Made by a program: the position numbers and the translations under genes. This document shows, piece by piece, positions 10,982 to 59,243 of a stretch of 64,000 nt of DNA (the first letter of the stretch is position 1; every line of letters begins with the position of its first letter). Source of the stretch: Cordylochernes scorpioides (lineage: Eukaryota; Arthropoda; Arachnida; Pseudoscorpiones; Chernetidae); NCBI GenBank assembly GCA_030710605.1, contig CP092863.1, positions 115,448,680 to 115,512,679 of the forward strand. The letters are read 5' to 3'. The notes beneath the pieces are model-generated. The model worked only from the letters and a program-made list of their open reading frames with translations. It had not been told where the DNA came from and did not search any database.

Positions 10982-11396
10982 ATGAAAAAGGCTTTTCCTT
11001 ATCGTGCAACTGAAAGTTGCTGATGGCTTGCGCCATCTATCGGAATAAATATCAACTATTCACGTTGATTTTTTAATTATTCCAGAATTGGCCAAATACC
11101 CATTCTTGATTAATCAAGAAAAAGCTAACCACGGACGCGTTTCGGGCTGTTGGCCCTCATCAGCGTGGTGCAAGCTGTACCTCAACGACCAAAAAACTGG
11201 TCATTCAAGCATCCTGAAAAATCATGAAATGGGTAGTTAAGGCCAGAATTGCGTGAGTCTGCGACACAATTGAAGGCTGGCCAATTCTGGAATAATTAAA
11301 AATCAACGAGAATATTTGATATTTATTCCGATAGATGGCGCAAGTCATCAGCAACTTTCAGTTGCATGATAAGGAGATGCCTTTTTCATAACTTAT
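10982..11396. repeat. Hammerhead family B foldback element
   Basis: Long inverted arms: AAAGGCTTTTCCTTATCGTG on the left, CATGATAAGGAGATGCCTTT on the right. Both arms contain CTGAAAGTTGCTGATGG or its complement and ATAGATGGCGCAAG. The loop carries the 40-nt ribozyme at 11129-11168. A near-copy is at 50303-50700, a shortened one without the loop at 57055-57246, and a decayed one at 32345-32640. Confidence 0.8.
11129..11168 (-). ncRNA. Hammerhead ribozyme, family B
   Basis: On the minus strand: stem I CCACG, CTGATGA, stem II GGGC-CAACA-GCCC, GAAAC, stem III ACGCGT, cleavage after GTC, stem I CGTGG. Stem I pairs 5/5 and stem II 4/4. All invariant core bases are present. Stem III is a self-complementary ACGCGU with no room for a hairpin loop, so efficient cleavage probably needs a dimer. 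Confidence 0.85.
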
Positions 11397-11649
11397 GCAA
11401 TAAGTTTCTTTGTTACGAAAACACTCGGCCCCCACAATGCTCATTTTCAGTTGTAACTTCAGCCGTTGAAGAGAGAGAGTTCGAAAGCTCGCAGTGTTTC
11501 GTAATGAAAAAAACTTATTTTAGAAAGGTATTATCAAAAATTATAAAAATAACAAGTTTGAGTAGAAAGTAGATGGGGAAGATATATATATGATATATAT
11601 AAAAAAAAGAGATTTTCTACTCGATTTTGAAATTGTTGAGATTATGCTA

Positions 11650-12210
11650 TGGTAATGCAGTCATGGTTAAAATCTTGAAAGAAATCTAATAAAAATGGTT
11701 TTGATCAGAGATTTCTTTAATTGAACTAAAGGAATAAATAAAAAAACGCCTGGCTTAAGGCCTAAGAATCTAAAAAATGAAAAGATTATTTACAAAATGT
11801 ACAAAAGATTTGAGCCGGCCATCGGGAAACAACAACAATGAGTTTTTATAGGGGAAACGTGACCTCTGGCGGTCGATTTAACAGAGTATTTGAATCAATG
11901 AAATATAATTTTAAATATAATATTTTTTAATATAACATATATATGTTATGTAAAAATATTATTTTATTTCAAATTTATTTCATAGATTAAATTACTCTGT
12001 TAAATCGACCACCAGAGGTCACCGTTTTCACTTTATAAACTCTATTGTTGTTGTTTCCTGCTGGCCGGCTCAAAACTTTTGTACATTATGTAAATAAGTC
12101 ATTTTTTTATTCTTATGCCTTAAGCCAGGCAGTACTTTTATCAAATTATGGTTTTTTATATATTCCTTTAGTTTAATTAAAGCTATTTTTGGTAACTTAT
12201 TTTTTTATTA
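11650..12210. repeat. Large palindrome (snap-back repeat)
   Basis: Two arms of about 270 bp mirror each other around an AT core near 11940 (ACATATATATGT). Shared blocks include GCCTGGCTTAAGGC, TTGAGCCGGCC/GGCCGGCTCAA and GACCTCTGGCGGTCGATTTA and its complement. A single arm of the same family occurs at 31960-32280. No coding sequence or target duplication found. Confidence 0.75.
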
Positions 12211-12540
12211 ATATTATTCCAACGACTGCAAAACAGTATCATAATGATCAAACAACCCACTCAATATACCAAAATCTGCAGAAATCATTTTTATGTAATA
12301 TATATATATAGAGAGAGAGATCATTTTAAGTTCAAAATGCCATGTAAAAATAAAACCGGATTCATATATCGTAAAAAAAGAATGAAGAATCAAGATTCAG
12401 AAAGCTTCAGTTTCATCCCAATTCTTCTTATCTTCTACCCGGTGAACGATTTCCTGAAAACACAGGCGGGAGGAAGTTAGTGGAATGTTGTTGTTTCTTA
12501 TCCCCTTGTGTAAAGATTACACAAATTCCATGAGTTCATG

Positions 12541-12877
12541 CCAGTCCCAAGCCCGGATGAAAAAGGAGGAGGAGGAGCAGTAACAAGCTCACTAAAAAAC
12601 CTGGGTTCAGCTGGCCCGGCTGATAGTACCCTGTAAGGGCTCCAGGGATACAGGATGAGCAGCGTTTGTACTCCATGTTAGGAGCGGCTGCACATGGCAT
12701 CTGTTCCTCATGTCAGAGGCAGCTATTTCTTTTGGAGCTAAGTCGGCCTGCTACTGAGTAGTGCTCCCAGTCTTAATGACAAAGGCAGATGCATTCTACA
12801 TCACCCAGTCATAATGGTTGTCAAGCTTTACAAGCTTGATACCGTAATACGATTGAGTGGAGATAAGAAAGAAGAAG
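12541..12877 (+). repeat. SINE family Y copy, 5' truncated
   Basis: Begins at GTCCCAAGCCCGGATG, fused to a fragment of the (AAC)n LINE. Ends TGAGTGGAGATAAGAAAGAAG. Confidence 0.65.
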
Positions 12878-13084
12878 AAGAAGATGAGTTCATGCTCCTC
12901 GAGCTGTTTTATGATAAGCAGTGGCCTCTCCCAAAGATCCTGTTTAATGCATCCAATGCAAGGTAAAATGTGTTCTGGAGCTGCAGGTGCCAAGCTACAT
13001 TTTGGGCAAGTGGGGTAGATTTTGTTGTTATATTCTAAAGATGACTTGTTCTAAATCTTATTTTTATTTTGCTTATCCATAGTA

Positions 13085-13316
13085 CAGGTGGTACAGGCCA
13101 TAATAATCATGATGGGTAGAAGTAGGTGACTGCTTTTACTGTAAGTGGACCACATGTCTACACACGTGAAAAGCAGTTCGACTTTGCACTTACAAATGTG
13201 CCTCGCGTTTTAATTGCTTACACTTACTGGTGGGGTTGGACTTTTGTAAGAATCGGTGGCCATTGGAGAATTTTTTTTTTTCTTAATCAGAAAAAAAGTG
13301 CCAAATTTGGGATATA
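13085..13316 (-). repeat. tRNA-derived SINE, fragment
   Basis: Carries the SINE body (reverse orientation): GGTACAGGCCATAATAATCA, GAAAAGCAGTTCGACTTTG, TGGTGGGGTTGGACTTTTG. The tRNA-like head is missing. Confidence 0.6.
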
Positions 13317-13469
13317 ATACGTACAGTGGGCCAAAATGATGGATCGCGAATAAAATTATTTATCTACCATAAGTGGATCACTCTTAGTCACTCACCCCAT
13401 AGTATAACCCAATAGAAACACCGACTAGTGAGTACTCAAGTAGAGAAGTACTGATGGGTTAATACTCAC

Positions 13470-13574
13470 ACTGCTTGTCTTCTCTTCTATAAGATCCACC
13501 TCATATTTAGCGTAGAGTTTGGCATCAACCCCACATATAGGATTCATGACAAAGACGTAGGTGATCAACTTGGC
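13470..13574 (-). CDS. Unrecognised exon, 35 codons (paralogue of the 44.5-kb exons)
   Basis: An open segment bounded by a good acceptor (TTTTCTCTCCAG) and donor (GTGAGTATT), phase 0 at both sides. It encodes AKLITYVFVMNP…CGVDAKLYAKYEVDLIEEK. The start resembles the peptide at 44514-44588 (AKFRTIIGVINPPC): both read AK-(L/F)-x-T-x3-V-x-NP-x-C. I do not recognise the family. It lies downstream of the last P2X exon found, on the same strand, and is not P2X-like. It may be an exon of a neighbouring or interleaved gene. Confidence 0.5.
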
Positions 13575-13645
13575 CTGGAGAGAAAACACACACAGGCCAT
13601 TTAACTGGAGCTTGGGATGGGTCAAATCACAACATTTTTGAAATA

Positions 13646-16534
13646 CAGTAGAACATAATTCATGATAGGACACTTCTGCTAAAGGACACCTCTCTACAGT
13701 AGAACATACTCCATGAGAAGACACTCCTGCTAGAGGACACCTCTCTACAGTAGAACATACTCCATGAGCGGCATTCCCGCTAGAGGACATCTCTCTACAG
13801 TAGAACATACTCTATGAGAGGACACTCCCACTAGAGGACACCTCTCTACAGTAGAACATACTCCATGAGAGGACACTCCCGCTAGAGAACATCTCTCTAC
13901 AATAGAACATACTCCATGAGAGGACATTCCCGCTAGAGGACATCTCTCTACAGTAGAACATACTCCATGAGAGGTCATTCCCGCTAGAGGACACCTCTCT
14001 ACAGTAGAACATACTCCATGAGAGGACACTCCCGCTAGAGGACATCTCTCTACAGTAGAACATACTCCATGAGAGGACACTCTGGCTAGAGGACACCTCT
14101 CTACAGTAGAACATACTCCATGAGAGAAATTCCCGCTAGAGGACACCTCTCTACAGTAGAACATACTCCATGGTAGGACACTCCCGCTAGAGGACACCTC
14201 TCTACAGTAGAACATACTCTATGAGAGGACACTCCCGCTAGAGGACACCTCTCTACAGTAGAACATACTCTATGAGAGGACACTCCCGCTAGAGGACATC
14301 TCTCTACAGTAGAACATACTCTATGAGAGGACACTCCCGCTAGAGGATACCTCTCTACAGTAGAACATACTCCTTGAGAGAAATTCCCGCTAGAGGACAC
14401 CTCTCTACAGTAGAACATACTCCATGAGAGGACACTCCCGCTAGAGGACACCTCTCTACAGTAGAACATACTCCATGAGAGGACACTCCCGCTAGAGGAC
14501 ACCTCTCTATAGTAGAACATACTCCATGAGAGGACACTCCCGCTAGAGGACACCTCTCTACAGTAGAACATACTCCATGAGAGGACACTCCCGCTAGAGG
14601 ACACCTCTCTACAGTAGAAAATACTCCATGAGAGGACACTCCCGCTAGAGGACACCTCTCTACAGTAGAACATACTCCATGAGAGGACATTCCCGCTAGA
14701 GGAGACCTCTCTACAGTAGAACATACTCCATGAGAGGTCACTCCCGCTAGAGGACATCTCTCTACAGTAGAACATACTCCATGAGAGGTCACACCCACTA
14801 GAGGACATCTCTCTACAGTAGAACATACTCCATGAGAGGTCACTCCCGCTAGAGGGCATCTCTCTACAGTAGAACATACTCCATGAGAGGACACTCCCGC
14901 TAGAGGACATCTCTCTACAGTAGAACATACTCCATGAGAGAAATTCCCGCTAGAGGACACCTCTCTACAGTAGAACATACTCCATGAGAGGACACTCCGC
15001 TAGAGGACACCTCTCTACAGTAGAACATACTCCATGAGAGAAATTCCCGCTAGAGGACACCTCTCTACAGTAGAACATACTCCATGAGAGGACACTCCCG
15101 CTAGAGGACACCTCTCTACAGTAGAACATACTCTATGAGAGGACACTCCCGCTAGAGGACACCTCTCTACAGTAGAACATACTCCATGAGAGGACACTCC
15201 CGCTAGAGGACACCTCTCTACAGTAGAACATACTCCATGAGAGGACATTCCCGCTAGAGGAGACCTCTCTACAGTAGAACATACTCCATGAGAGGCATTC
15301 CCGCTAGAGGACACCTCTTTACAGTAGAACATACTCCATGAGAGGTCACTCCCGCTAGAGGACATCTCTCTACAGTAGAACATACTCCATGAGAGGTCAC
15401 TCCCGCTAGAGGACATCTCTCTACAGTAGAACATACTCCATGAGAGGACACTCCCGCTAGAGGACATCTCTCTACAGTAGAACATACTCCATGAGAGGAC
15501 ACTCCCGCTAGAGGACATCTCTCTACAGTAGAACATACTCCATGAGAGGACACTCCCGCTAGAGGACATCTCTCTACAGTAGAACATACTCCATGAGAGG
15601 ACACTCCCGCTAGAGCACATCTCTCTACAGTAGAACATACTCCATGAGAGGACACTCCCGCTAGAGGACACCTCTCTACAGTAGAACATACTCCATGAGA
15701 GGACACTCCCGCTAGAGGACATCTCTCTACAGTAGAACATACTCCATGAGAGGACACTCCCGCTAGAGGACACCTCTCTACAGTAGAACATACTCCATGA
15801 AAGGACACTCCCGCTAGAGGACACCTCTCTACAGTAGAACATACTCCATGAGAGGCATTCCCGCTAGAGGACACCTCTCTACAGTAGAACATATTCTATG
15901 AGAGGACACTCCCGCTAGAGGACACCTCTCTACAGTAGAACATACTCCATGAGAGGACACTCCCGCTAGAGGACACCTCTCTACAGTAGAACAACCTCCA
16001 TGAGAGGACACCTCTCTACAGTAGAACATACTCCATGAGAGGACACTCCCGCTAGAGGACACCTCTCTACAGTAGAACATACTCCATGAGAGGACACTCC
16101 TGCTAGAGGACATCTCTCTACAGTAGAACATACTCCATGAGAGGACACTCCTGCTAGAGGACATCTCTCTACAGTAGAACATACTCCATGAGAGGCATTC
16201 CCGCTAGAGGACACCTCTCTACAGTAGAACATACTCCATGAGAGGACACTCCTGCTAGAGGACATCTCTCTACAGTAGAACATACTCCATGAGAGGACAC
16301 TCCTGCTAGAGGACATCTCTCTACAGTAGAACATACTCCATGAGAGGACACTCCTGCTAGAGGACATCTCTCTACAGTAGAACATACTCCATGAGAGGAC
16401 ACTCCTGCTAGAGGACATCTCTCTACAGTAGAACATACTCCATGAGAGGACACTCCTGCTAGAGGACATCTCTCTACAGTAGAACATACTCCATGAGAGG
16501 ACACTCCCGCTAGAGGACATCTCTCTACAGTAGA
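13646..16534. repeat. 51-bp minisatellite, about 57 units
   Basis: Unit on the plus strand: TAGAACATACTCCATGAGAG + GACACTCCCGCTAGAGGACA + CCTCTCTACAG (51 bp). Variants change a few positions (CATCTCT for CACCTCT, TGCTAG for CGCTAG) or lack three bases (GAGGCATTCCC). The first unit starts with a MITE-like CAGTAGAACATAATTCATG, so the unit is an expanded MITE end. Because 51 is a multiple of three, long open frames appear in several frames. They are not genes. Confidence 0.95.
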
Positions 16535-16717
16535 GTGTTGTATATTCCTTCTTCACTTGTACCAATCTAAATTTCTGTCAATACTACACTAATTATTGTT
16601 CTTTAAGACAAGGAACTGCTTGTTCTCGATTGCTTGTATATAAGTTTATACCAAGCCCTTTCTTTCTTCTTTCCCCCTTATTTGATACATTGTTGATTAT
16701 TGTTACTATTACTGTAA

Positions 16718-17127
16718 CTCTGCCTTTGCTGGCCCCAAGCCCAGATGAAAAAGGAGGAAGGGGAGCAGTAACAAGCTTGATAAAAACATGGGCCCAGCTG
16801 ATAGTACCCTGTAAGGGCTCCAGGGATACAGGATGTACTCCATGTTAGGAGCAGCTACACATAGCATCTGTTCCTTATGTCAGAGGCGGCCATTATATAT
16901 TGGAGCTATTTCAGTGTCCTGCTACCTAGTAGTGCTCCCAGTTTTAATGACAAAAGCAGACACATTCTACTTTACCCAGTCATGATGGTTGTCAAAAACC
17001 TCATAATTGACTGTATTGTCTAATCCATTGATGAGCTCTACTCATCTCCAGCACAGACACAATCAACAAGCTCTACAGACTTGATACCCTAATATGATTG
17101 AGTGAAGATAAGAAAGAAGAACAAGAC
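16718..17127 (+). repeat. SINE family Y copy
   Basis: Head TAACTCTGCCTTTGCTGGCC, landmarks CAGTAGTGCTCC-type and tail TTGAGTGAAGATAAGAAAGA. Somewhat diverged. Confidence 0.65.
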
Positions 17128-17189
17128 ATGAAGTCTAACAATAGTGTCTACAGTTTTCTGTCTGATTGGTATTGATTGATGATTAAGTA

Positions 17190-17438
17190 ATATGTGGTAC
17201 AGGCCATGTGTGATAATCATGGTGGTAATTTAGTGACGGCTTTTACTGCAAGTGTACCACATGTCTACACATGTGAAAAGCAGTTCGATTTTTGCATTTA
17301 CAAATGTGCCAGAGCTCTGTTTGGTTACTTGCACTCACTGGTGGGGTTGGACTTTTGCCCAATGAGGGATACGATTTGGGGTCGTAGCAGTCAAAAACCA
17401 ATGGTTTAGACCACCCTTCCACTGACGACCCCCATGAA
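17190..17438 (-). repeat. tRNA-derived SINE copy
   Basis: Reverse-oriented SINE: tail side GGTACAGGCCATGTGTGATA, body GAAAAGCAGTTCGATTTTTG, and a decayed tRNA-like head near 17370-17430 (GACCACCCTTCCACTGACGA). Confidence 0.65.
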
Positions 17439-17482
17439 GGTACCCACATTGAAACTACAACAAATCTATGGTGCTAACTCAC

Positions 17483-47600: not shown

Positions 47601-50600
47601 CTAGAGGACACCTCTCTACAGTAGAAATACTCCATGAGAGGACACTACAACTAGAGGACACCTCTCTACAGTAGAAATACTCCATGAGAGGACACTACAA
47701 CTAGAGGACACCTCTCTACAGTAGAAATACTCCATGAGAGGACACTCCCGCTAGAGGACACCTCTCTACAAAGGACAGTTCTCAATGTCAAAATTACAAT
47801 TTTTACTAATTAGCAACTCTCTTATAAGAGGACACCTCCCTCTAAAAGACACTTTAGATCTGCAAACTAGGTGCTGTCCCAGAGAGGTACTGTAAAAAAG
47901 TAGAGAAATTCTCTCTAAAGACCACCACCTAGTTTCAGAACCACAATCCCTCTTCAGGGATATGGGGGAGCTACGTCTGTATTCATGTTAGAGTCGGCAG
48001 TAAAGGCCATTATTTTAGGAACGGCCTCCAGTCAGACTTTCACCAAAGTGTGCCTTGATCATGGTGCCATCATCAACGAAAACAGAACTCTTACACCCTA
48101 TTCCATGAGATCATAGCTAGAGGAGCATGGACTCATGTCATCTTTGCACTCTTGCAACTCCGCCCTTGCCGGTCCCAAACCCGGATAAAAAGGAGGAGGG
48201 GGAGCAGTAACAAGCTCACTAAAAACCTGGGCTCAGCTGGCCCGGCTGATAGTACCCTGTAAGGTCTCCTAATCCAGGGGTACAGGATGAGCAGTGTTTG
48301 TACTCCATGTTAGGAACGGCTGCACATGGCGTCTGTTCCTCATGTCAGAGGCGGCCATTTATTTTGGAGCTAATTCGGCCTGCCACTGAGTAGTGCTCCC
48401 AGTCTTAATGACAAAGGCAGACGCATTCTACTTCACCCAGTGTGGAGATAAGAAAGAAGAAGAAGAGAAGTGTAATCTTTGCACAAGGGGATAGGAAACA
48501 ACAATAACACATGCATGCTGTGTATAGACTAGAGGATGTTGGCTATTGGGAAATGAAACATGGGCTAATTACTAAACCAATATCTTACCTCTGGACATTT
48601 TCCTTGCTCTTGGTTAGGGGTGATGATCACATTGGTGGCGATGAAGAAAGCTCCGTTCTCCTGTTCATTACAATAACACACATCATGAGATTACAATGTG
48701 GAGTATTACAATAACACACATGATTAGAGTGCACACAATATGGAGTTTTACACCAACGTTTAGTTGATTTTTGTTCCACTAGATGGCGCTCTGTCATCTA
48801 AAATGCATGTGAGTGATCAGGATATTCCAATTTTTTTTAAATATCAACACCTGATCATTTTTCTACTATTTTTTCATATATATACAGTGTACTCCGCTTA
48901 TAACAAAGTCGGTTATAGCGAAATTCCGCATATAGCGAATGAAATTGTCTGCACGAAAGAAAAGAAGGGCTTAAACCATTAAAAGAACTCTGGATATTGC
49001 GAAGTCGGATATAAAGAATTTTCGCTTATAACGAAGTGATTTGCATGTATACATTTTTATTTTATCCGTTTATAACGAAGTTTTCTCATTTACCATTATA
49101 ATTGACTAATATATTATGCATAATATATATCAAATTACAACGTGTGAATGACACAAATTTAATGATACACAACAAATAAGTTAATAATATACAATTTTAA
49201 AATATGCAAACCATGCGACCAAGGCATTATTCACAATTTTAAGATGATTTATCGAACGCGTTTAATGAGGAAATATTTGACGGCATACGATGCTGGAACA
49301 GCATTAACAATCAATCTTAAGCAAGCTGTGGATATTATATCTGTAGCATGGAATGATGTGCTTCCAGCAACAATTTCCAACTGTTGGCATCATAGTGGAA
49401 TTATTAAGTCCGATGTCAGTTCTCCATTGGATACACCACAGCCTGCAACACAAATGTGGGAGCAACAAAGCCTCTTTGATCGCATGAAAGAAGTTTTAAA
49501 AATACCATTAGAGATGGATTTCGATTCTTATGCTGACGCTGACAATGACGTCGTTACAAATGCCATGTTATCCGATGTAGAAATTGTCGAGAGCATTCTT
49601 CAAGCAAAAGAAGAAGAAACGGACCAAGTTGATGAAGAAGTAGACCCAATTGTCCACATTCCGCATCCAAAAGAGGTCTTGGAGAGCATTCAAACTCTGC
49701 GATTGTTTCTTCAATGTCAGGATGAGTCCAAGTCTCTTCATAGGCATCTGTCAGACTTGGACAACATCGAAAAGAGTGTTCAGCACTTGTTACTGACTTC
49801 TAAATGTCAAAAGAAAATCACAAACTACTTCTCCAAAAACACCTGATGAGGTTGTTATTGATCTTTGTGTTGCTCTTTTGAGTTGAATAGTAAATGATAT
49901 TATTGGTACAAAACATTTTTTTTTTCCAACTGCGGATATAACAAACTTCGGATATAACAAAGTGATTGTCGTGGATAATGCGACTTCGTTATAAGCGGAG
50001 TACACTGTATATATATATATAGATGGAAAATTTGCCGGGAGGAAATTAATCCATGGAAGCAATGGTCACCTCTCCCGTCAAAATTAACGTCAGAATCTGA
50101 CGCCTAGAGACCATGGTTTCGGGCTAAAGGCCCTCGTCAGTCTAGGTGGATGCTTATCAGTTTGCCAAAGTTGGTGTTGCGGCTTTGTCACCGACCCGAT
50201 GCCGCTAGTTGCGGCGACGGTCAATAGATGGCGTCAGATTCTGACGTTAATTTTGACGGGAGAGGCGACCATTGCTTCCATATATATATATATATATTAA
50301 GAAAAAGGCATCTCCTTATCGTGCAACTGAAAGTTGCTAATGGCTTGCGCCATCTATCAGAATAAATATCAACTATATTCTCGTTGATTTTTAATTATTC
50401 CAGAATTGGCCAAATACCCATTCTTGATTAATCAAGAAAAGCTAACCACGGACGCGTTTCGGGCTGTTGGCCCTCATCAGCGTGGTGCAAGCTGTACCTC
50501 AACGACCAAAAAAATTGGTCATTAAGGCATCCTGAAAAATCATGAAACGGGTAGTTTCATGATTAATCAAGAATGGGTATTTGGCCAATTCTGGAATAAT

Positions 50601-51326
50601 TAAAAAGCAACAAGAATAGTTGATATTTATTCCGATAGATGGCGCAAGCCATTAGCAACTTTCAGTTGCACGATAAGGAGATGCCTTTTTTCATAATTTA
50701 TGCACCTTATCCCAGTACAATATTACATTTGTACTATTTTTTCATATATATATGTATGCATATGAAGTCTGAACATTTAAGGCAAGTAAATGAAGTTACA
50801 TGGGAAGGTAAAAAAAAAGGTAATAAGACCAAATCCAAATAAATAATTAGTGTGTGACGTTTTGGTATCAGCGTTGTACCCATTTTCAGACAAAAATCCT
50901 GAATGAATATTGATGGAAATTTTGCCGGGAGGATATTGATCTAAAGAGACAAAAGGTCGCCTCTCCCGTCAAAATAGACGTCAAAACCAGACGCCATCTG
51001 AATGATGGTAAAAAGCCTGAAGATGGTAAAAACACTGTTACCGAAGCATCACACACAATTTATTTATTTGGATTTGGTGTGTTATTACCTTGTTATTATA
51101 ATCTATAATCCAAATTGTGCCTTATTACATGGGAAAGTGTCTCACCATGGGAGGTTCAATGAGGTCAGCCACATCCCATGTCCCCTGGTAGATTCTGGGG
51201 TTGGGAACCAGAGGATCAAATTTATCGGCTGAGAAGTTGGTGTAGATGAAACCTTTCACCTTGGCTGTGACGGCACTGACTCCCACTTCTGTTTTCTGGT
51301 AACCCCGGTTGTACCATAGAGAAACC
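17483..51326 (-). CDS. P2X purinoceptor (ATP-gated cation channel), eight exons found
   Basis: A trimeric plasma-membrane channel opened by extracellular ATP; each subunit has two membrane helices around a cysteine-rich ectodomain. Exons, in transcript order: 51326-51146, 48660-48589, 43169-43106, 39669-39570, 38389-38300, 35979-35829, 35765-35635, 17627-17483. All junctions keep frame and have GT/AG borders. Ectodomain hallmarks: AKVKG, WDVADLIEPP, KCPE, NPLADG…SLMTG, GRCV, VCEIEGWCPVE, LTVLIKNFIEF, CPIFRLGTIIEN, IIWDCSLD, SFRRLD, GKFSF, and the start of TM2 (GSGLGLLVL). All ten conserved cysteines are present. At the ATP site the lysine pair (AKVKG), the Thr of LTVLI and Arg of SFR are kept, but the Asn of the usual NFR is Ser and the upper-site Lys is Arg (LYRVNG). 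Exon 1 (TM1) and the exon(s) after TM2's start were not found. Introns are crowded with repeats. Confidence 0.88.
17629..19890. repeat. 34-bp minisatellite abutting a P2X exon, roughly 65-70 units
   Basis: Unit (plus): ACAAATATGTAAATAAGACA + TAGCTGCACACAGG (34 bp). Variants: 33-bp units with CAATATG, and short units lacking AAGACAT. On the transcribed (minus) strand every unit carries TATTTGCCCTGTGTGCAG, a pyrimidine-rich stretch ending in CAG, so it looks like a 3' splice site. The long open frames across it come from repetition, not coding. Confidence 0.95.
20088..20187. mobile_element. MITE, 100 bp, CAATAAAAC/GTTTTACTG ends
   Basis: Starts CAATAAAACCCCTTTATAGC, ends TTTTGTTTTACTG, TA flanks. 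The interior has TGGTTCACTATAGCCATAGT, a small inverted repeat. Pogo/Tigger-like ends. Confidence 0.65.
20188..20595. other. No gene; sequence flanking the Gypsy insertion
   Basis: Contains GTGGTGGTTGAGTGATGGG and other moderately GC-rich text. A similar GTGGTGGTTGATGG occurs after the Gypsy element at 31390, so both sides may belong to an older element that Gypsy entered. I could not define it. Confidence 0.3.
20601..20775 (+). repeat. Gypsy 5' LTR
   Basis: TGTAATGTATATTAAAC … AACAACAGAACA. Contains an AATAAA-like AAATAAACAATAAG near the 3' half. Differs from the 3' LTR by only a few bases, including an ATA indel near 20728, so insertion is recent. Confidence 0.93.
20776..20787 (+). promoter_or_regulatory. 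Putative primer-binding site
   Basis: TGGTGGCAGCGG directly after the 5' LTR, the position where a tRNA 3' end primes minus-strand synthesis. The tRNA was not identified. Confidence 0.5.
21238..25577 (+). repeat. 372-bp satellite, forward array (11 full units and a truncated one)
   Basis: Units repeat every 372 bp (373 where one A was added, near 24301 and 24986) and are almost identical; I noticed only one base change (near 24160). Each unit contains GGGAGGGCTTGGCTCATCAG and AAGCGCGAATGTTTCCCC. The same 60-codon open frame recurs in each unit but has no start context or family similarity, so I treat it as incidental. Diverged single copies lie near 41160-41270, 52255-52430 and 59795-59850. 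Confidence 0.95.
25578..26416 (-). repeat. 372-bp satellite, inverted array (two full units and a partial)
   Basis: The same monomer in opposite orientation, joined to the forward array at 25575-25590, where TTTTCAAGT is duplicated. With the forward array it can fold as a very long hairpin. Confidence 0.93.
26953..27023 (-). tRNA. tRNA-Gly(GCC), Helitron-borne, first acceptor base changed
   Basis: 71 nt, anticodon loop CTGCCAC (GCC), A box TGGTTCAGTGG, B box GGGTTCGATTCCC. The first base is C instead of G, so the acceptor stem lacks one pair. A T/A-rich run follows the 3' end as terminator. Confidence 0.8.
27247..27317 (-). tRNA. tRNA-Gly(GCC), Helitron-borne, diverged
   Basis: As the preceding copy, with the same 5' change and another in the 3' acceptor strand (CTGATGCA for CCGATGCA). 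Likely a tRNA pseudogene. Confidence 0.7.
28022..31165 (+). pseudogene. Gypsy pol (protease, reverse transcriptase, RNase H, integrase), broken
   Basis: The enzyme polyprotein for copying and integrating the element. Protease active site LDTGADVNILP at 28103-28135. Reverse transcriptase 28545-29100, with YRICIDPRELN, LPFGISSAPE and the catalytic HIDD (28932-28943; usually Y/F-x-DD). RNase H about 29370-29700 (FADANKDGLGA, YTDHKPL). Integrase about 30010-30570: zinc-binding HX…H then CSIYQQ, where the second cysteine of the usual CxxC is tyrosine; D, D, E at about 30221, 30380 and 30488. The tail reads SGRVVRPPRRLNL. Breaks: frameshift at 28538-28545, a one-base loss in an A run near 28995, and a stop (TGA) at 30572-30574 where relatives have Arg. 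Not translatable as one protein. Confidence 0.88.
31171..31182 (+). promoter_or_regulatory. Polypurine tract of the Gypsy element
   Basis: AAAGAGGGGACA immediately before the 3' LTR; primes plus-strand DNA synthesis in LTR elements. Confidence 0.7.
31183..31355 (+). repeat. Gypsy 3' LTR
   Basis: Near-identical to the 5' LTR, ends ACAACATAACA, followed by target copy AGATC. Confidence 0.93.
31361..31955. other. No gene recognised
   Basis: Mixed-composition DNA with no terminal repeats I could define. GTGGTGGTTGATGG near 31390 echoes 20256-20272 before the Gypsy element. Confidence 0.4.
32345..32640. repeat. Hammerhead family B element, decayed
   Basis: Contains GAGCGCCATCTGGTGGAACA, GATAAATCAAGAAAAGCCA and a ribozyme core at 32490-32529. 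Arms are shorter and diverged from the copies at 10982 and 50303. Confidence 0.65.
32490..32529 (-). ncRNA. Hammerhead ribozyme motif, family B, GUU variant
   Basis: Minus strand: CTACG, CTGATGA, GCGC-CAAAA-GCGC, GAAAC, GCGTT, CGTGG. Stem I pairs with one U-G wobble and stem II is perfect, although changed in sequence from the other copies on both sides (compensatory). The cleavage triplet is GUU instead of GUC, so activity is doubtful. Confidence 0.7.
32659..33342 (+). mobile_element. Helitron-like element, 684 bp
   Basis: Starts TCTATATTAATAAAATGG and ends with a hairpin (ACCCGGGCGAAGCCGAGT) and CATCCGCTAG before a T. A second hairpin-end (…GGGCGAAGCCGGGTACATCC) sits at 33170-33193, so it may be composite. 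Closely related to the full copy at 60368-60745. Confidence 0.7.
33354..35075 (+). mobile_element. Tigger/pogo DNA transposon, internally deleted
   Basis: Inverted ends CAGTGGTACCTCGACTTACG / CGTATGTCGAGGTACCACTG between TA duplications. About 1.7 kb; the missing middle removed part of the transposase. Confidence 0.9.
33804..34839 (+). pseudogene. Tigger transposase, deleted in the catalytic domain
   Basis: A pogo-family DDE transposase. It starts MDRKKVCKKSSAKKK, followed by an N-terminal helix-turn-helix (IELKREIIEKHEQGVRVVDL) and a CENP-B-like DNA-binding region (FKASRGWFENFKKRSGIHS). The first catalytic Asp is in FNCDETGLFWKKMP, then DRLTLALCANASGD and LLVYH. At about 34565 the frame leaves the family: the segment with the second and third catalytic residues is missing. 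A C-terminal part (34590-34839, ending KKAKTCEDI) continues in another frame. It cannot cut DNA, but the binding domain is complete. Confidence 0.85.
35353..35400 (-). ncRNA. Hammerhead ribozyme, family A
   Basis: Minus strand: TTTTGT, CTGATGA, TGGTAACAATGTTGTTGCC (stem II GGTAACAA/TTGTTGCC with a G-U pair), GAAAC, GTC, ACACAC. Stem III is only ACGU, self-complementary. Stem I is weak (TGT/ACA). Confidence 0.7.
35425..35470 (+). ncRNA. Hammerhead-like motif, family A, second arm
   Basis: CTGATGA, stem II GGTGACAA/TTGTTGCT, GAAAC, ATC. Mirror copy of 35353-35400 with an AUC cleavage triplet. Confidence 0.6.
35635..35765 (-). CDS. P2X exon: WDCSLD…SFRRLD segment
   Basis: Phase 0 entry, phase 2 exit, donor GTAACC. 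Encodes GAVISIQIIWDCSLD, YSCYPQYSFRRLD and GWSFR. Holds cysteines nine and ten and the ATP-site Arg. Confidence 0.92.
35829..35979 (-). CDS. P2X exon: RNII…CPIFRLG segment
   Basis: Donor GTGAGT; encodes RNIIQTSENFTYCRYH and DPLCPIFRLGTIIEN with cysteines seven and eight. NFT is a possible N-glycosylation site. Confidence 0.95.
36824..36894 (+). tRNA. tRNA-Gly(GCC), intact, inside a Helitron
   Basis: 71 nt starting GCATCGGTGGTTCAGTGG. All stems pair, anticodon GCC, A box TGGTTCAGTGG, B box GGTTCGATTCC, and a T run right after the gene as Pol III terminator. It differs from typical animal tRNA-Gly(GCC) by few bases. Confidence 0.88.
37131..37180 (-). pseudogene. Truncated tRNA-Gly
   Basis: The first 50 bases of the same tRNA-Gly, cut in the T arm and fused to the Helitron 3' region (GAGAAATCCCTTGAGTGC). 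Confidence 0.85.
37594..38217 (+). repeat. SINE family Y copy, split by a solo LTR
   Basis: Head AACTCCGCCTTTGCCGGTCC; interrupted after GGCTGATAGTAC; resumes CCCTGTAAGGGCTCC at about 37939; tail GAGTAGAGATAAGAAAGAAG. Confidence 0.75.
37697..37926. mobile_element. Probable solo LTR, 230 bp
   Basis: Inverted tips TGTAGGCG … CGCCTACA, with an AATAAA-type signal near 37855. Sits inside a SINE with about 12 extra bases (GAAGCCAACATT) on the right. Target duplication AGTAC/ATTAC is imperfect. Confidence 0.55.
38300..38389 (-). CDS. P2X exon: LTVLIKNFIEF segment
   Basis: Enters phase 2, leaves phase 2, donor GTAAGT. Encodes LKNHQPLLAGTEDLTVLI and KNFIEFENFDLKK. Includes the ATP-contact Thr (Phe before it in vertebrates is Leu here). 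A LINE insertion begins only about 12-20 bp beyond the acceptor. Confidence 0.93.
38405..39152 (+). pseudogene. GAA-tailed LINE: RNase H domain and 3' UTR, rearranged
   Basis: One open frame (38380-38997) encodes IIIYSDSRAAIYTLQ and WLPAHVGISGNELADSLAKA, an RNase H domain as in I-clade and related LINEs, then a tail ending EWLQGFPTMY. The stretch 38430-38537 repeats 38766-38874 (ESTTQL-ERDL…SNAA-DWY), so the 5' end is a duplicated C-terminal piece joined in frame to RNase H. The 3' UTR ends TGAGTGGAGATAAGAAAGAAG + (GAA). 5'-truncated. Confidence 0.8.
39195..39511 (+). repeat. tRNA-derived SINE copy
   Basis: tRNA-like head with B box GGTTCGATTCCCGC at about 39250, body GAACTGCTTTTCACATGTG, poly(A) tail after CTAGAGATGCGC. 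Confidence 0.8.
39570..39669 (-). CDS. P2X exon: GRCV…EGWCPVE segment
   Basis: Enters phase 1, leaves phase 2, donor GTAAGT. Encodes PTTGRCVRSDVNSS and KVCEIEGWCPVEVKAGPL, with cysteines four to six and a possible glycosylation site NSS. Confidence 0.94.
39811..40131 (-). repeat. tRNA-derived SINE copy
   Basis: Reverse orientation. Poly(T) at the left, B box complement GGGAATCGAACCCGGG at about 40064-40080. Confidence 0.8.
40240..40553 (+). repeat. tRNA-derived SINE copy with target duplication
   Basis: Flanked by GGGTATCAAG (40230-40239, 40554-40563). Inserted in a reverse SINE family Y tail (40187-40670). Head GGGGGTCGGTGGAACGC, B box GGGTTCGATCCC. Confidence 0.85.
40698..41120. repeat. 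Cluster of hammerhead family A repeats
   Basis: At least two overlapping or nested copies: minus cores near 40735-40780 and 40885-40910, plus core near 40925-40975 (GTCTGAAAATGG, drifted). Tail blocks GGTAATAAGACC and AAATTGTG recur. Confidence 0.6.
41433..41573. repeat. Hammerhead family A repeat without core
   Basis: CAAGGTAATAAGATC … CCAAATTGTGCCTTATTA with the ribozyme largely deleted. Just before it, 41160-41270 is a diverged 372-bp satellite fragment. Confidence 0.55.
41863..42903. repeat. MITE whose right end is expanded into a 51-bp minisatellite, about 18 units
   Basis: The left part is ordinary MITE sequence (CAGAGACAAAGTGTCCTTTA at about 41896). From about 41989 to 42902 the terminal 51 bp (TAGAGAGGTGTTCTCTGGTG + TGCGTGTCCTCTCATGGAGT + ATGTTCTACTG) repeats. 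The last five units read CTAGAGAGAGT in the middle. Ends GGTTCTACTG/TA, the MITE tip. Confidence 0.93.
43106..43169 (-). CDS. P2X exon: NPLADG…SLMTG segment
   Basis: Phase 0 entry (after KCPE), phase 1 exit. Encodes NPLADGARCVHHCPVGV and SLMTG with cysteines two and three. The donor is a weak GTCTTA; a better GT is not in frame. Confidence 0.88.
43500..43855 (+). repeat. SINE family Y copy
   Basis: AACTCCGCCTTTGCCGG head (from 43500) and TTGAGTGGAGATAGAAAGAA tail. Confidence 0.75.
44305..44382 (-). CDS. Unrecognised exon, 26 codons
   Basis: Acceptor TTTCCACAG, donor GTGAAT, phase 0 both sides. Encodes IKARFHNFLLPGITP and TLLNESDILTK. Follows the 44.5-kb exon in the same frame phase, so both probably belong to one transcript. 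Family not recognised. Confidence 0.5.
44514..44588 (-). CDS. Unrecognised exon, about 25 codons, doubtful acceptor
   Basis: Encodes FRTIIGVINPPCLNDK and SPNIQVLVD before donor GTGAGT. The homologous acceptor of the 13.5-kb paralogue (CAG before GCCAAG) is AAT here. An AG six bases inside (GCCAAG) could serve. It may be a decayed exon. Confidence 0.42.
44636..47892. repeat. 50/51-bp minisatellite, about 62 units, ending in a MITE body
   Basis: Unit: TAGAACATACTCCATGAGAG + GACACTACAACTAGAGGACA + CCTCTCTACAG, with 50-bp versions (AGAAATACTCC) and units with AACAACCTCC. At about 47768 the last unit runs into MITE interior (ACAAAGGACAGTTCTCAATG … GAGGTACTG), showing where the unit came from. Two short MITE ends at 44022 and 44090 precede it. 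Confidence 0.93.
48150..48474 (+). repeat. SINE family Y copy inside an (AAC)n LINE
   Basis: Target duplication ATCTTTGCAC (48140-48149, 48475-48484). Tail GTGGAGATAAGAAAGAAGAA. The interrupted LINE ends GGGGATAGGAAACAACAATA at about 48510. Confidence 0.8.
48589..48660 (-). CDS. P2X exon: FFIATNVIITPNQEQGKCPE
   Basis: 24 codons, phase 0 both sides, donor GTAAGA. Equivalent to the FFVMTN…CPE block of P2X receptors; first conserved cysteine. Confidence 0.94.
48885..50007 (+). mobile_element. Second Tigger/pogo transposon, internally deleted
   Basis: Inverted ends CAGTGTACTCCGCTTATAAC / GTTATAAGCGGAGTACACTG between TA sites. The N-terminal two thirds of the transposase are missing. Confidence 0.88.
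49244..49846 (+). pseudogene. Tigger/pogo transposase, C-terminal part
   Basis: 200 codons. RKYLTAYDAG, INLKQAVDIISVAWNDV and TISNCWHHSGI are the region just after the DDE catalytic core of pogo-family transposases; an acidic tail ends QKKITNYFSKNT. The DNA-binding and catalytic parts are deleted, so the first ATG (49244) is incidental. Confidence 0.8.
50022..50280. repeat. Hammerhead family C foldback element
   Basis: Arms GAAGCAATGGTCACCTCTCC … GGCGACCATTGCTTCC with the ribozyme in the loop. Sits directly next to the second Tigger. Related pieces: 9169-9340 and 50912-50998. Confidence 0.78.
50103..50146 (-). ncRNA. Hammerhead ribozyme, family C
   Basis: Minus strand, 44 nt: stem I CCTAGA, CTGACGA, stem II GGGC-CTTTA-GCCC, GAAAC, stem III ACCATGGT, cleavage after GTC, TCTAGG. 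Stem I pairs 6/6, stem II 4/4. Stem III is self-complementary. Confidence 0.85.
50303..50700. repeat. Hammerhead family B foldback element, second copy
   Basis: AAAAAGGCATCTCCTTATCG on the left, CGATAAGGAGATGCCTTTTT on the right. The loop ribozyme at 50446-50485 is identical to that at 11129-11168. Confidence 0.82.
50446..50485 (-). ncRNA. Hammerhead ribozyme, family B, identical copy
   Basis: The same 40 bases as 11129-11168: CCACG / CTGATGA / GGGC…GCCC / GAAAC / GCGTC / CGTGG. Confidence 0.85.
50818..51127. repeat. Hammerhead family A foldback, interrupted by family C fragment
   Basis: GGTAATAAGACC at the left, CCAAATTGTGCCTTATTA at the right. Family C text (TTTGCCGGGAGGATATTG … CCTCTCCCGTCAAAAT) occupies about 50912-50998. 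Cores are drifted. Confidence 0.6.
51146..51326 (-). CDS. P2X exon: post-TM1 to WDVADLIEPP
   Basis: Acceptor GTGGTCCACAG, donor GTGAGA. Encodes VSLWYNRGYQKTEVGVS, AVTAKVKGFIYTN and GTWDVADLIEPPM. AKVKG holds the two ATP-binding lysines. A stretch of about ten extra residues (DPLVPNPRIY) precedes WDVAD compared with vertebrate P2X4. Enters in phase 1, so an upstream TM1 exon must exist. Confidence 0.93.
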
Positions 51327-51361
51327 CTGTGGACCACACAATAATAAACTGTTAGAATAAA

Positions 51362-51726: not shown

Positions 51727-51770
51727 ATAAATGACAATAATTTTCCATTTCTCAGATTCTACCCATCAGT

Positions 51771-52251: not shown

Positions 52252-52487
52252 CACCCTTCAGTATAACATATATAAGCAGAATGATCCAATACAGTATTAG
52301 AGCTCTAAGAGAAGCAGTCTGGTAGATTAAATTGGAGAAACCACTGGGGGATTCACCACTGATGAGACAAACCCTCCCAATATATTTTTTATTGCAGTAA
52401 GGACAGTAGAAGTTTGTTTTATGTATAAAAGAAACAATAATACTTTAATATGATTTTATCCCTATATATGACATATATATATATATA

Positions 52488-53054
52488 CTAGGCGAATGAC
52501 CCGGCTTCGCCTGAGAAATCCCTTGGGTGCAATTTCCTTCATACTAAAAGTATATCAATAATAAATATTAGAAGTGCCATAGAATAGCAATACAGAAGTA
52601 ACACATAAACTACAGGAAAAAAGTGTGTGTGATGGCAAAAATTGTATTATATTAGTGTTTAGGTATTTGATTTAATTAATATAGTTGATATAATAATATA
52701 TATTTATATTATATATAATATAAATGAGTTTTAAAAATTGTAAAAAAAAAAAATGCATCGGCCGGGAATCGAACCTGGGCCGCCCGCGTGGCAGGCGAGC
52801 ATTCTACCACTGAACCACCGATGCTTAAAAAAAAGGCCATATTTAGGTATTCATTCCATTCCGGATTAGTCCGCATAAAAAAAAGTTCTTTAAATGAAAA
52901 AAAGAAATAGCCAAAAATACTAATCAAAATGCAGCCGAAAATTTTCCTCAGGTTTATAAAAAGCGACATGCAAAATTTGGTACCAATTGGTTCAGTAGTT
53001 TTTGAGTTTATCGCGAAACAGACAGACAGACATTGACTTTTATATATATAGAGA
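52488..53054 (-). mobile_element. Helitron-like element with tRNA-Gly, 567 bp
   Basis: Minus strand starts TCTCTATATATATAAAAG, ends with hairpin (CAGGCGAAGCCGGG) and CTAG, between host A and T. Contains one tRNA-Gly. Confidence 0.8.
52754..52824 (-). tRNA. tRNA-Gly(GCC), Helitron-borne, one T-arm change
   Basis: 71 nt, acceptor stem intact, anticodon GCC. One base of the T stem is changed (CCCAGGTTCG instead of CCCGGGTTCG). Confidence 0.83.
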
Positions 53055-53056
53055 TA

Positions 53057-55398: not shown

Positions 55399-55490
55399 TA
55401 TATATATAAGTCAGTGTATGTATGTATGTTTGTCGGCTATACACGTTCATAATACGTAACTAATCTGGCTGAAATTTTAACATTATAAAG

Positions 55491-55871
55491 ACAAGGTAAT
55501 AAGACCAAATCCAAATAAATAAATAGTGTGTGACGTTTCGGTAACAGCGTTGTTACCATCTTCAGACAAAAAAGTAATAATGAGAAATTTTACCACAGCA
55601 TGGTTTAAATAGTTACTGTTATCAAGTGTGTAAACAAGATAGCAGATAAGAAGATATTTATCTGAGAAACACACTTCTTCTTATCTGTTATCTTGTTTAC
55701 ACACTTGATAACAGTAACTATTTAAAAACATGCTGTGGTGAAATTTCTCATTATTACTTTTGTCTGAAGATGGTAACAACGCTGTTACCAAAACGTCACA
55801 CTCTATTTATTTATTTGGATTTGGTCTTATTACCTTTTGTTTATAATCTATAATCCAAATTGTGCCTTATC
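55491..55871. repeat. Hammerhead family A foldback, clean target duplication
   Basis: 381 bp between AACATTATAAAG (55479-55490) and AACATTATAAAG (55872-55883). Minus core near 55527-55571 is intact (CTGAAGA, GGTAACAACGCTGTTACC, GAAAC, GTC). The plus core near 55757-55800 reads AAAAC, so it is mutated. Confidence 0.85.
55527..55571 (-). ncRNA. Hammerhead ribozyme, family A
   Basis: TTTGT, CTGAAGA, stem II GGTAAC…GTTACC, GAAAC, GTC, ACACAC. Stem III ACGU is self-complementary. Stem I only three to four pairs. Confidence 0.7.
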
Positions 55872-56585
55872 AACATTATAAAGAGTTGAATCTGGAAAAA
55901 CTTATAGGCAAATTTTCAGGCTTCTATCTCGAATATCCTTAAAGTTATTAACTCGCAACCAAGCGTCTCAATGCGGAAACTTAGCGAAGTAAATTTGAGG
56001 AAGGATGGACGGTGCAAGGGAATTGGTGGAACGGGACGTTTAACAAGAGTGACCTTGAGTGACGTAATGATGGTGTTTCGGATGCGATCACTGCCTCAAT
56101 TACTAAGCTCGGAAAGGTTGCCGCATCCTGGATATGTCTGGCCTTATCTAAATAGTTGTGTTGACTGTATCTTCTTGCCAGACTTCTTCTGGTCTCCAAC
56201 CGAAGCTTATTTGCTTTCTTAAAAGTGCCCACAACCCACTGATGACACTAATAATTCACCAACACCCGATTGTTACTGACACACTTTTATTAAACTTACA
56301 CATCCTTATATACACAATTATATTTACAAGTATGTAAATCTTCTGAATAAGCAAAAAGATAGAAATTTACATAACCGGCATCTCCAGATGGCGTAGGAAC
56401 AAGAAATCCCTTGCTATCATTTTATGTATATCTATCAAATTAAAAATATATTCATATAAAAAATCAAAATAATACAATTTTCAAATATTGTTGTGAAAAT
56501 TTTTATATTTTGAAAACACACAAAGTTTGGAGCGGGACACAAGAGTGACATCCACGGCGCCAATTTATAATTGTAACGAATAGTA

Positions 56586-56807
56586 CAAGTTAATAAGACC
56601 AAATTCAAATAAATAAATAGTGTGTGACGTTTCGGTAACAGCGTTGTTACCATCTTCAGACAAAAGTACTGAATTCAGTACATAAATAGATTCAGTACTT
56701 TTGTCTGACGATGGTAACAACGCTGTTACCGAAACATCACACACTATTTATTTATTTGGTCTTATTACCTTGTTTTATAATCTATAATCCAAATTGTGCC
56801 TTATCAA
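56586..56807. repeat. Hammerhead family A foldback inside a Helitron end
   Basis: Imperfect 14-bp duplication TGTAACGAATAGTA/TGTAACAAATAGTA. Minus core near 56625-56668 intact; plus core near 56700-56740 CTGACGA … GAAAC ATC. The Helitron 3' end (hairpin, CTAG at 56869-56872) follows. Confidence 0.78.
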
Positions 56808-57054
56808 TGTAACAAATAGTATTTGAATAAAAACATTTAATCGGGTAAAACCCGGGCGTTGCCCTCGGCTAGTTTCCCATATATAGATGACATGTTATTA
56901 CTTTATATTAAGTAATATGTGATCAAATATTCATTATAACCCTTTTTTTTTCTTTATTTCCGATATTTTTTTAGTGCCCTACTGACACCCTTTTTAAAGG
57001 TAAACTAATCCTATAATGCCAATGTGATATTGTATTGGGATAAGGTGCATAATT

Positions 57055-57246
57055 ATGAAAAAAGGCATCTCCTTATCGTGCAATTGAAAGTTGCTGATGG
57101 CTTGCACCATCTATCGGAATAAATATCAACTATTCTTGTTGCTTTTTTTTTTTTTTTCAACAAGAATAGTTGATATTTATTCCGATAGATGGCGCAAGTC
57201 ATCAGCAACTTTCAGTTGCACGATAAGGAGATGCCTTTTTTCATAA
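57055..57246. repeat. Hammerhead family B foldback lacking the ribozyme loop
   Basis: Two perfect arms (AAAAGGCATCTCCTTATCG / CGATAAGGAGATGCCTTTT) joined by a T run at 57140; internal deletion of the loop. Confidence 0.8.
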
Positions 57247-57395
57247 TCCTATAATGGTTATTAATTATTATAGTAAATAATAGACCTTCCCACAATGCAC
57301 CATCCACATGACCAAAGAGATCTCACCAGACCACCTCTTGGAATGTATGGAAGCCTCAAGACAGGACCTGTATTCCAACTCTACCAAGATTGTCT

Positions 57396-57770
57396 TCTTC
57401 TTCTTTCTTATCTCCACTCAATCATATTAGGGTGTCAAGCTTGTAAAGCTTGTTGATGGTGTCTGTTGACAGCCATCATCATGATTGAGTAAAGTAAAAT
57501 GTGTCTGCCTTTGTCATTAAGACTGGGAGCACTACTCAGTGGCAGGCCTACTTAGCTCCAAAAGAAATGGCCGCCTCTGACATGAGGAATAGATGCCATG
57601 TGCAGCTGCTCCTAACATGGAATACAAAGGCTTCTCATCCTGTATCCCTGGAGCCCTTACAGGGTACTATCAGCCGGGCCAGCTAAGCCCAGGTTTTTTA
57701 GTGAGCTTGTTACTGCTCCTCCTCCTCCTTTTTCATCCGGGCTTGGGACTGGCAAAGGCGGAGTTGAAAT
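57396..57770 (-). repeat. SINE family Y copy
   Basis: Reverse copy: tail CTTCTTTCTTATCTCCACTC at left, head complement GGCAAAGGCGGAGTT at right. Confidence 0.75.
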
Positions 57771-57941
57771 TGTGAATTTGATCTATGAATATAGTCTCCA
57801 TGACCTTGTATAATTATACAATGGGATAATAATTTTTAAAAAGTGAATAATTAATTATATAAGAATATGGTAGAACATTCATTAAAGGAAACTCTCGATA
57901 GAGAACACCTCTCTAGAAAAAAAACTGTTTTTCTTTGCTAA

Positions 57942-58070
57942 CACAAGGTAATAAGACCAAATCCAAATAAATAAATAGTGTGTGACGTTTCGGTAACAGC
58001 GTTGTTACCATCTTCAGACAAAAGTACTAAATCGTGTTTATAATCTATAATCCAAATTGTGCCTTATCAA
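57942..58070 (-). repeat. Hammerhead family A, half-length copy with target duplication
   Basis: Flanked by GTTTTTCTTTGCTAA (57927-57941, 58071-58085). A single arm with an intact minus core (about 57980-58026). Inserted in a CAGTAGAAC-type MITE. Confidence 0.83.
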
Positions 58071-58532
58071 GTTTTTCTTTGCTAAAAGATCATTTTTACT
58101 ATTTAACAGCTTTCTCTTCTTCTTTCTTATCTCCACTCAATCATATTAAGGTGTCAAGCTTGTAAAGCTTGATGGTGGGGCAGCTTTCTGATAAGAGGAG
58201 ATCTCTCCTTAAAGGACACTTTGGCTTTGTACTTAGGTGTTGTCCTTTACAGAGAGGTAGTTCTACTGTTGAGGTAAATTTGGAATTTCTTTATTAACTG
58301 TCTTCCAGCGGTTGTTGAGTGCATACTTGCGAATAGCCTATCTAAGGTGTAGTTCATACTGTCACAAGACATATAGACACGTTCAAACAAGCAAGAAAAT
58401 GAGCCGGTAACAAGACAGAAGAACAGAGATCCTTGAATCTCTTTGTGCTGGAAAATTGGCAAAGAAGATAATTGAATGGTTTGGTAAAAATAGAGGCTGT
58501 CTGGCCGGCATTCATATTTCTTGATGTATTAC

Positions 58533-58571
58533 CTCGATGTTTCGACAAAAATCTTTTGTCCTCATCAGGAG
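58533..58571 (-). ncRNA. Possible hammerhead ribozyme, family D
   Basis: Minus strand: CTC, CTGATGA, GGACAAAAGATTTTTGTC (stem II GACAAAA/TTTTTGTC approx.), GAAAC, ATC, GAG. Core residues are present, but stem I is three pairs and stem III lacks a proper pair, so it may be decayed. Confidence 0.5.
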
Positions 58572-58574
58572 TAA

Positions 58575-59240: not shown

Positions 59241-59243
59241 TAA

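Follow-up and report, generated by a model that had tools for sequence, protein, structure and literature searches.

A 64,000-nucleotide stretch of the genome of the pseudoscorpion Cordylochernes scorpioides (assembly GCA_030710605.1, contig CP092863.1, positions 115,448,680 to 115,512,679 of the forward strand; hereafter, the window) was analysed for four repeats, A, B, C and D, in which an initial annotation had noticed hammerhead ribozyme motifs. The analysis indicated, with a probability of about 0.7, that the window holds non-autonomous retroelements, that B, C and D carry type I hammerheads, and that B would pass through a retrozyme cycle served by a Penelope-like enzyme. All four repeats share one insertion pattern, which the initial annotation had missed: two copies are arranged head to head, one arm exceeds the other by about 25-55 nt, and target-site duplications (TSDs) are short. 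Loci elsewhere in the genome are designated by L numbers.

Palindromic elements in the window (A, B, C, D and a hammerhead-less relative of B) were represented by 14 rows, some of the A rows being alternative arms of one place, and a direct repeat with a score of at least 9 was found for nine of them, as compared with 6.7% in a random-placement control. In each of these nine, one side was flush and the other extended 24-44 nt further; the five rows without a direct repeat were all A. Head-to-head copies, a tail and a short TSD were found for A, B and C, the evidence being weak for C and for copy B3, where simple repeats are involved. Interpretation of the inverted repeats as miniature inverted-repeat transposable elements or other DNA transposons was set aside because of the TSD length and the scattered 5' ends.

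B occurs in the window as the following features:

10918 to 11403, minus strand: element B1, with TSD TTATTGCATAAG at 10918-10929 and 11392-11403
11120 to 11180, minus strand: type I hammerhead of B1, predicted cut after base 11134 (GUC)
32340 to 32626, minus strand: element B2, part of a 351-nt putative retrozyme monomer, 95.8% identical to the L009 monomer, 3' end at site 1 (see below)
32481 to 32541, minus strand: type I hammerhead of B2, with compensatory changes, predicted cut after base 32495 (GUU)
50279 to 50753, minus strand: element B3, flanking repeat CATATATATAT, longer end on the inverted-arm side
50437 to 50497, minus strand: type I hammerhead of B3, identical to that of B1 over 61 nt, predicted cut after base 50451
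57006 to 57256, no strand given: hammerhead-less head-to-head relative of B1 and B3, with a 13-bp TSD CATTATAGGATTA

In B1, the inverted arm occupies 11278-11391, the hammerhead lies in the direct arm and the longer 3' end (about 44 nt) spans 10930-10973. No TSD was detectable in the flanks of B2. Over the 61 nt of the hammerhead, B2 differed from B1 by 10 substitutions that left the core intact and kept 15 of 15 pairs; in two pairs both partners were replaced, and GUU took the place of GUC as the cut triplet. Conservation matching that between B1 and B2 was reached in 50 of 200,000 neutral simulations. Helix III of B, A[CGCG]U, resembles that of an axolotl motif in which, according to the available text of PMC7229834, one pair is capped by a palindromic tetraloop and the dimer cleaves better. 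Judged from its sequence, B is a sound hammerhead of type I in which compensatory changes have occurred.

Copies of B in the genome (2.62 Gb in 24 contigs) were located with the Rfam model Hammerhead_HH9 (RF02275), the best Rfam match of B, which aligned over the full model. Of 178,716 candidates, 58 were scored, so that the resulting 18 matches, at 16 places, represent no copy number; 0 of 14 control genomes gave a match. A DNA search of the same genome with the B monomer produced 0 matches from 0 candidates, presumably since words of this monomer are too frequent for such a search, and is uninformative as to copy number. Tandem B monomers, absent from the window itself, were found elsewhere in the genome. 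At L009, 4.9 and 6.8 monomers (351/350 nt), 99% alike, lie head to head on opposite strands, and this 4.1-kb array of about 12 monomers is located wholly within a single 12-bp duplication, ATAGGTTTATAT, for which reason it is best read as one insertion. One of its outer ends stops at ...GCCATTTTTTAT and the other about 50 nt further. At L056, a tandem B stretch of 2,088 nt comprises 5.9 copies. The tandem 351-nt monomers of L009 identify B as a predicted animal non-LTR retrozyme (LTR, long terminal repeat), with a type I hammerhead that has stems I-III, a monomer within the range of 170-400 nt and a TSD longer than 4 bp. The monomer has a GC content of 39%, and its predicted circular fold of -112.6 kcal/mol was more stable than those of shuffled sequences (-76.1 kcal/mol, standard deviation 5.9; z -6.2), none of 100 shuffles being equally stable.

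The 16 places and the window together provided 41 B segments, whose 3' ends were numbered relative to the monomer's hammerhead cut. These ends were concentrated at two sites about 50 nt apart, with 21 at site 1 (148-162) and 13 at site 2 (198-212), while seven lay elsewhere (three divergent window segments, one cut by a locus edge and three others). In 10 of 12 head-to-head pairs, one arm ended at each site (L003, two in L005, L009, L010, L046, two in L048, L051 and L054). The 5' ends were scattered, and one arm in L005 begins at position 1, the predicted cut. TSD-like repeats with a score of at least 9 flanked 9 of the 11 B pairs tested and 3 of the 7 single copies, compared with 1.3% for random ends and 4.7% for AT-rich ends; at L055, a repeat of at least 15 bp that the script missed was seen by eye. 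These data fit a model in which each DNA end would prime synthesis at one of two sites on a circular or multimeric template.

The same pattern was observed in autonomous elements of this genome, to which D is related. D is represented in the window by two features:

58473 to 58627, minus strand: element D, with TSD AAACCATTCA, a short inverted arm, a hammerhead and a tail
58529 to 58574, minus strand: minimal (helix-III-less) hammerhead of D, GAAAC-AUC, with GUC or GUU in genome relatives

Apart from an internal deletion, the window copy corresponds to a repeat of Penelope-like elements, whose tail it retains, and it contains no frame; sequence comparison identifies it as a solo terminal repeat, now degraded, from autonomous Penelope-like elements encoding a reverse transcriptase (RT) plus a GIY-YIG domain. 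A search for the GIY-YIG domain (PF01541) gave 146 matches among the 150 of 17,015 candidates scored, in frames of up to 828 aa; this domain is not animal-specific, being common in bacteria and matched in 12 of the 14 control genomes. RT plus C-terminal GIY-YIG was found in four of six proteins scanned (L032, L034, L035 and L036), and D-type hammerheads adjoin the frame in all four of these loci. The L033 protein showed no domain, and that of L031 showed an N-terminal GIY-YIG without an RT match, as in Penelope-like elements with permuted domains. L031 (G000:C1:8984500-8994400) forms a head-to-head pair, 99.5% identical, with arms of more than 4.3 kb and a copy of A in both arms. Head-to-head arms were found in seven autonomous loci, with 98.9-100% identity over the longest match. 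In four of the six pairs whose ends were tested (L032, L036, L045 and L038), the TSD measured 12-14 bp and the tail 22-33 nt; L034 had a 7-bp repeat only, and the 35-bp repeat of L037 was not readable. D thus combines RT/GIY-YIG relatives with the head-to-head copies, tail and short TSD of Penelope-like elements. An earlier interpretation of D as a chance match, based on its lack of helix III, was withdrawn in view of the known minimal form in Penelope-like elements and the genome relatives.

In all 19 aligned rows of D-type hammerheads, an additional purine, G or A, separates CTGANGA from stem II (alignment A3, column 22; window position 58561). Of 26 rows, those left out were one false match, L015:2089 (shortened stem) and five that were identical over the stretch. 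Since the rows were found with a regular expression that required the core, the invariant core in this alignment provides no independent evidence.

C is a further element with this insertion pattern:

50008 to 50294, minus strand: element C, with the inverted arm beginning immediately after the predicted hammerhead cut
50103 to 50146, minus strand: type I hammerhead of C, predicted cut after base 50109 (GUC), with self-complementary ACCATGGU in helix III

The perfect stem I of C results from a head-to-head junction located exactly at the predicted cut. Two further C copies were encountered incidentally in the B loci L003 and L055; in the former, CCTAAG stands opposite TCTAGG, and in the latter the core is broken. 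The C junction and the L005 arm that begins at the predicted cut suggest that cleaved RNA may have served as template.

In the proposed mechanism, B transcripts would cleave themselves at the hammerhead to yield a 351-nt RNA, which a host ligase would close into a circle. A Penelope-like RT/GIY-YIG protein would then make a staggered cut in an AT-rich target, and each DNA end would prime reverse transcription at one of the two internal start sites, which are separated by about 50 nt. Synthesis may circle the template more than once, after which the two complementary DNAs would be joined head to head. D would be a solo repeat of the autonomous elements, and C and A further small elements inserted according to the same pattern. 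The predicted B folds with their compensatory changes, the tandem monomers, the concatemer within one TSD, the two 3' ends and the pattern of the autonomous elements are the sequence-based part of this scheme; cleavage in the cell, the circles and the acting enzyme are steps that we infer. As described in the available text of PMC11167929, a Penelope-like protein cuts and extends both strands, with reverse transcription from two adjacent internal sites, and an example in PMC3846280 has inverted pseudo-LTRs, a 31 bp tail and a 9-bp TSD. Mobilization of animal retrozymes by Penelope-like elements has been proposed, with the latter as strong candidates (PMC7229834), and the present data support that proposal. 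For the broader generalization that animal retrozymes are parasites of Penelope-like elements, whose RNA circle is copied from both cut ends at two dedicated sites, one for each DNA end, to give rolling-circle products joined head to head, we regard the chances as even.

Several observations weigh against this interpretation. The initial annotation had named the lack of Rfam covariance hits above threshold as a ground for rejecting its claim, and this is, to the letter, what was observed: no hammerhead in the window reached the gathering score. In a sub-threshold scan (E up to 10), Hammerhead_HH9 matched the three B copies with 31.2, 26.5 and 26.0 bits against a cut-off of 52, and no hammerhead family matched A, C or D. 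None of the 18 genome-wide matches exceeded that cut-off either, the best scoring 41.8 bits, and the B loci, picked by this search, are no random sample. Minimum-energy folding did not set the motifs apart (for stretches of B, C and D, z ranged from -0.7 to -1.5), and the fold obtained for B2 is a structure other than the hammerhead. The repeat that flanks B3 is a simple repeat and weak as a TSD, as is the (TA)n repeat that flanks C; repeats at B pairs were mostly AT-rich, with only L003, L009 and L054 of nine being non-simple by eye. Two pairs depart from the one-site-per-arm rule: in the second L010 pair (9647/9771), site 1 was read for both arms, of which the second reaches the edge of the locus, and in the L056 pair one arm ends at site 2 and its partner at 139. 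No RT/GIY-YIG relative sharing A, B or C sequence was recognized in 35 GIY-YIG loci (L011-L045). Matches to A beside the frames of L031, L039 and L043 represent an old A insertion, which in L031 has a 14-bp repeat, GGTATGGTATTGGT, on both sides (by eye), and other copies in these loci looked nested.

The same Penelope-type insertion could also proceed from a linear, multimeric transcript of a tandem array, in which case neither ribozyme nor circle would be needed for insertion. This alternative is considered unlikely, although in vitro, according to the available text of PMC11167929, hammerhead mutants of an Anolis Penelope-like element insert as well as the wild type, from which it follows that cleavage may be dispensable for the enzyme's own RNA. 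Also consistent with a linear template, the 10 complete monomers of L009 differ at 8 columns, with the variant at column 170 present in both halves; because a variant is common to both halves, the L009 variants do not discriminate between a circular template and a linear multimeric one. A circle readily accommodates scattered 5' ends together with fixed 3' ends, as well as stretches longer than one monomer, and the junctions of C and L005 at the predicted cut suggest use of cleaved RNA.

Mobilization by a protein of long interspersed nuclear elements (LINEs), for instance of the RTE type, with inversions arising from twin priming, is improbable. Two fixed 3' ends, one per arm, together with a one-sided tail are characteristics of Penelope-like elements (PMC3846280 and PMC11167929, in the text available) and were seen in the autonomous Penelope-like elements of this genome. 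LINEs are named beside Penelope-like elements as candidates in the available text of PMC7229834, and LINE relics and an RTE-like repeat are present in the window; this RTE-like repeat, in which head-to-head pairs were not looked for, differs in that its 5' ends lie at one point. An origin of the arrays and palindromes as ordinary satellite DNA, through DNA recombination and inversion without RNA, would agree with other long arrays in the window, including a 372-bp array with an inverted part, and is nevertheless given very little credence in view of the 12-bp TSD around the entire L009 concatemer, the two fixed 3' ends at places on different contigs and the compensatory changes in the B ribozyme.

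That the hammerhead motifs are chance matches within repeats is, for B, C and D, scarcely credible: descriptor matches exceed those in shuffled sequences, B shows compensatory changes and D-type cores adjoin RT/GIY-YIG frames, against which stand the lack of any score at the Rfam gathering level and the fact that one repeat supplies most matches to the simple pattern. All nine named CTGANGA...GAAAC cores were present at their positions, 9 of 9 on the minus strand. This pattern matched 17 times in the window, compared with a mean of 1.15 in 100 dinucleotide shuffles, and repeat A was the source of 10 of the 17. A strict descriptor, requiring a type I hammerhead with stems I, II and III, matched four times (B1 at 11163, B2 at 32524, B3 at 50480 and C at 50140) and in 0 of 100 shuffles. 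With helix III optional, the same four and D at 58568 were matched, against 0.057 matches per window in 300 shuffles (maximum of two in one); the evidence lies in this count rather than in the score, since the rare shuffle matches score as high as real ones. None of 10 A copies passed either descriptor, stems I and II around the core being inadequate. The B core gave 0 matches in a scan of viral contigs. Of the four hammerhead families announced in the initial annotation, the motifs are real, yet they do not constitute four equal ribozyme families. Its suggestion that several retroelement lineages depend on self-cleaving RNA holds as regards the presence of hammerhead-bearing retroelements and is too strong as regards dependence; A has no convincing ribozyme, and C is a single element in the window. 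Perfect stems I and II, claimed for B and C, were confirmed for B1 and B3; B2 has one G-U pair, and C owes its stem I to the palindromic junction. Its choice of Penelope-like elements and retrozymes as the relevant known kinds was borne out by the tandem 351-nt monomers of B and by the autonomous Penelope-like elements that carry D.

For A itself, a chance match is the likely state of affairs. Its palindromic copies were as follows:

56572 to 56821, no strand given: A palindromic element, TSD-like TGTAACRAATAGTA (14 bp, one mismatch), right arm 34 nt longer
35304 to 35547, no strand given: A palindromic element, 9-bp repeat TAGTAGCGT, right arm 26 nt longer
55479 to 55884, no strand given: A palindromic element, 13-bp repeat AACATTATAAAGA, right arm 24 nt longer; core at 55535-55565 (minus strand)
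40799 to 41017, no strand given: A-type palindrome, 12-bp repeat TCACAGCATGTT, left arm 27 nt longer

Hammerhead-like cores lie at 56629-56659 (minus) and 56705-56735 (plus) in the first of these and at 35363-35393 (minus) and 35430-35460 (plus) in the second; the fourth adjoins another A copy with a core at 40742-40772 (minus). A was rejected as a ribozyme family: both descriptors fail and the core is half of a palindrome. With a hammerhead-like core and poor stems, its predicted activity is doubtful. Minimum-energy folds of two A stretches had z values of -2.1 to -2.4. Matches to microRNA families over A and over the hammerhead-less relative of B were dismissed as palindromes, with no microRNA evidence.

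A second ribozyme-like motif missed in the initial annotation, below the Rfam cut-off, is a type P1 twister-like motif at the 5' end of a repeat of about 360 bp, with eight Rfam matches of 23.0-44.7 bits (cut-off 67.2):

48151, 59238, 37590, 43495, 57770 (minus strand), 16711, 51358 and 12518, and also 7655: twister-like repeat, Rfam sub-threshold

For six of eight other copies, alignment to the reference copy begins at 59242-59244, which we take to be the base after the twister cut; because the copies start there, the 5' end of this repeat may have been made by a ribozyme. The available text of PMC7761336 mentions RTE elements whose 5' end carries a truncated twister. At 21237-26417, a 372-bp repeat is present in 11.7 near-identical copies followed by 2.2 inverted ones, with arms of 837 nt that are 100% complementary. 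The start of this repeat resembles insect Helitrons. The array was also considered as a type II hammerhead (CTGATGAG + GAAAC) and dropped, as no fitting stem I was seen by eye. A related 51-bp repeat forms three arrays in two orientations (13644-16534, 41987-42905 and 44634-47770). Four near-identical transfer RNA matches (anticodon GCC by eye) lie at 26953-27023, 27247-27317, 36824-36894 and 52754-52824, two of them within a 294-bp tandem duplication. Other mobile-element remains comprise pieces of a Ty3-like retrotransposon at 27372-31165 (RT, RNase H and integrase; its first frame, 27372-28124, without a domain), a piggyBac-like transposase (DDE_Tnp_1_7) at 1629-3181 and a Tc5/pogo-like transposase at 33726-34595.

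Among known systems, plant LTR retrozymes, as far as the text of PMC4918200 available extends, are likewise non-autonomous and hammerhead-bearing, with circular RNA as the proposed intermediate; unlike B, they have type III hammerheads, LTRs and 4-bp TSDs (PMC7229834). Minimal hammerheads of Penelope-like elements (PMC7761336, PMC11167929 and PMC3846280, each in the text available) resemble D in their RT/GIY-YIG relatives, absence of helix III, head-to-head arrangement, tail and TSD; D-type hammerheads differ by one extra purine, and B and C by a short helix III. With Penelope-like elements, A, B and C share the insertion pattern alone, being without a coding frame. B agrees with the metazoan non-LTR retrozymes of PMC7229834, as portrayed in its available text, in its type I hammerhead, 150-450 bp tandem repeats, highly self-paired monomer, GC content below 45-50% and TSDs longer than 4 bp. 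Unlike those retrozymes as described, it forms concatemers that are joined head to head and have 3' ends fixed at two sites; neither 'inverted' nor 'head-to-head' appears in the main text of that paper, and no report of a two-site head-to-head pattern in retrozymes was found in the part of the literature covered. Penelope-like elements are allowed beside LINEs as movers of retrozymes in the available text of PMC11722881, and animal retrozymes are stated, in that of PMC7761336, to contain no conserved motif from which an autonomous partner could be deduced. If the present interpretation is true, the machinery behind retrozyme movement would be specifically recognizable by the two-site, two-end rule. 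The pattern is checkable through 3' ends in any retrozyme-rich animal genome, and it suggests a possible use of the ribozyme in producing unit-length or circular templates. An insertion pattern common to B and the autonomous Penelope-like elements of the same genome is the kind of partner evidence that had been missing.

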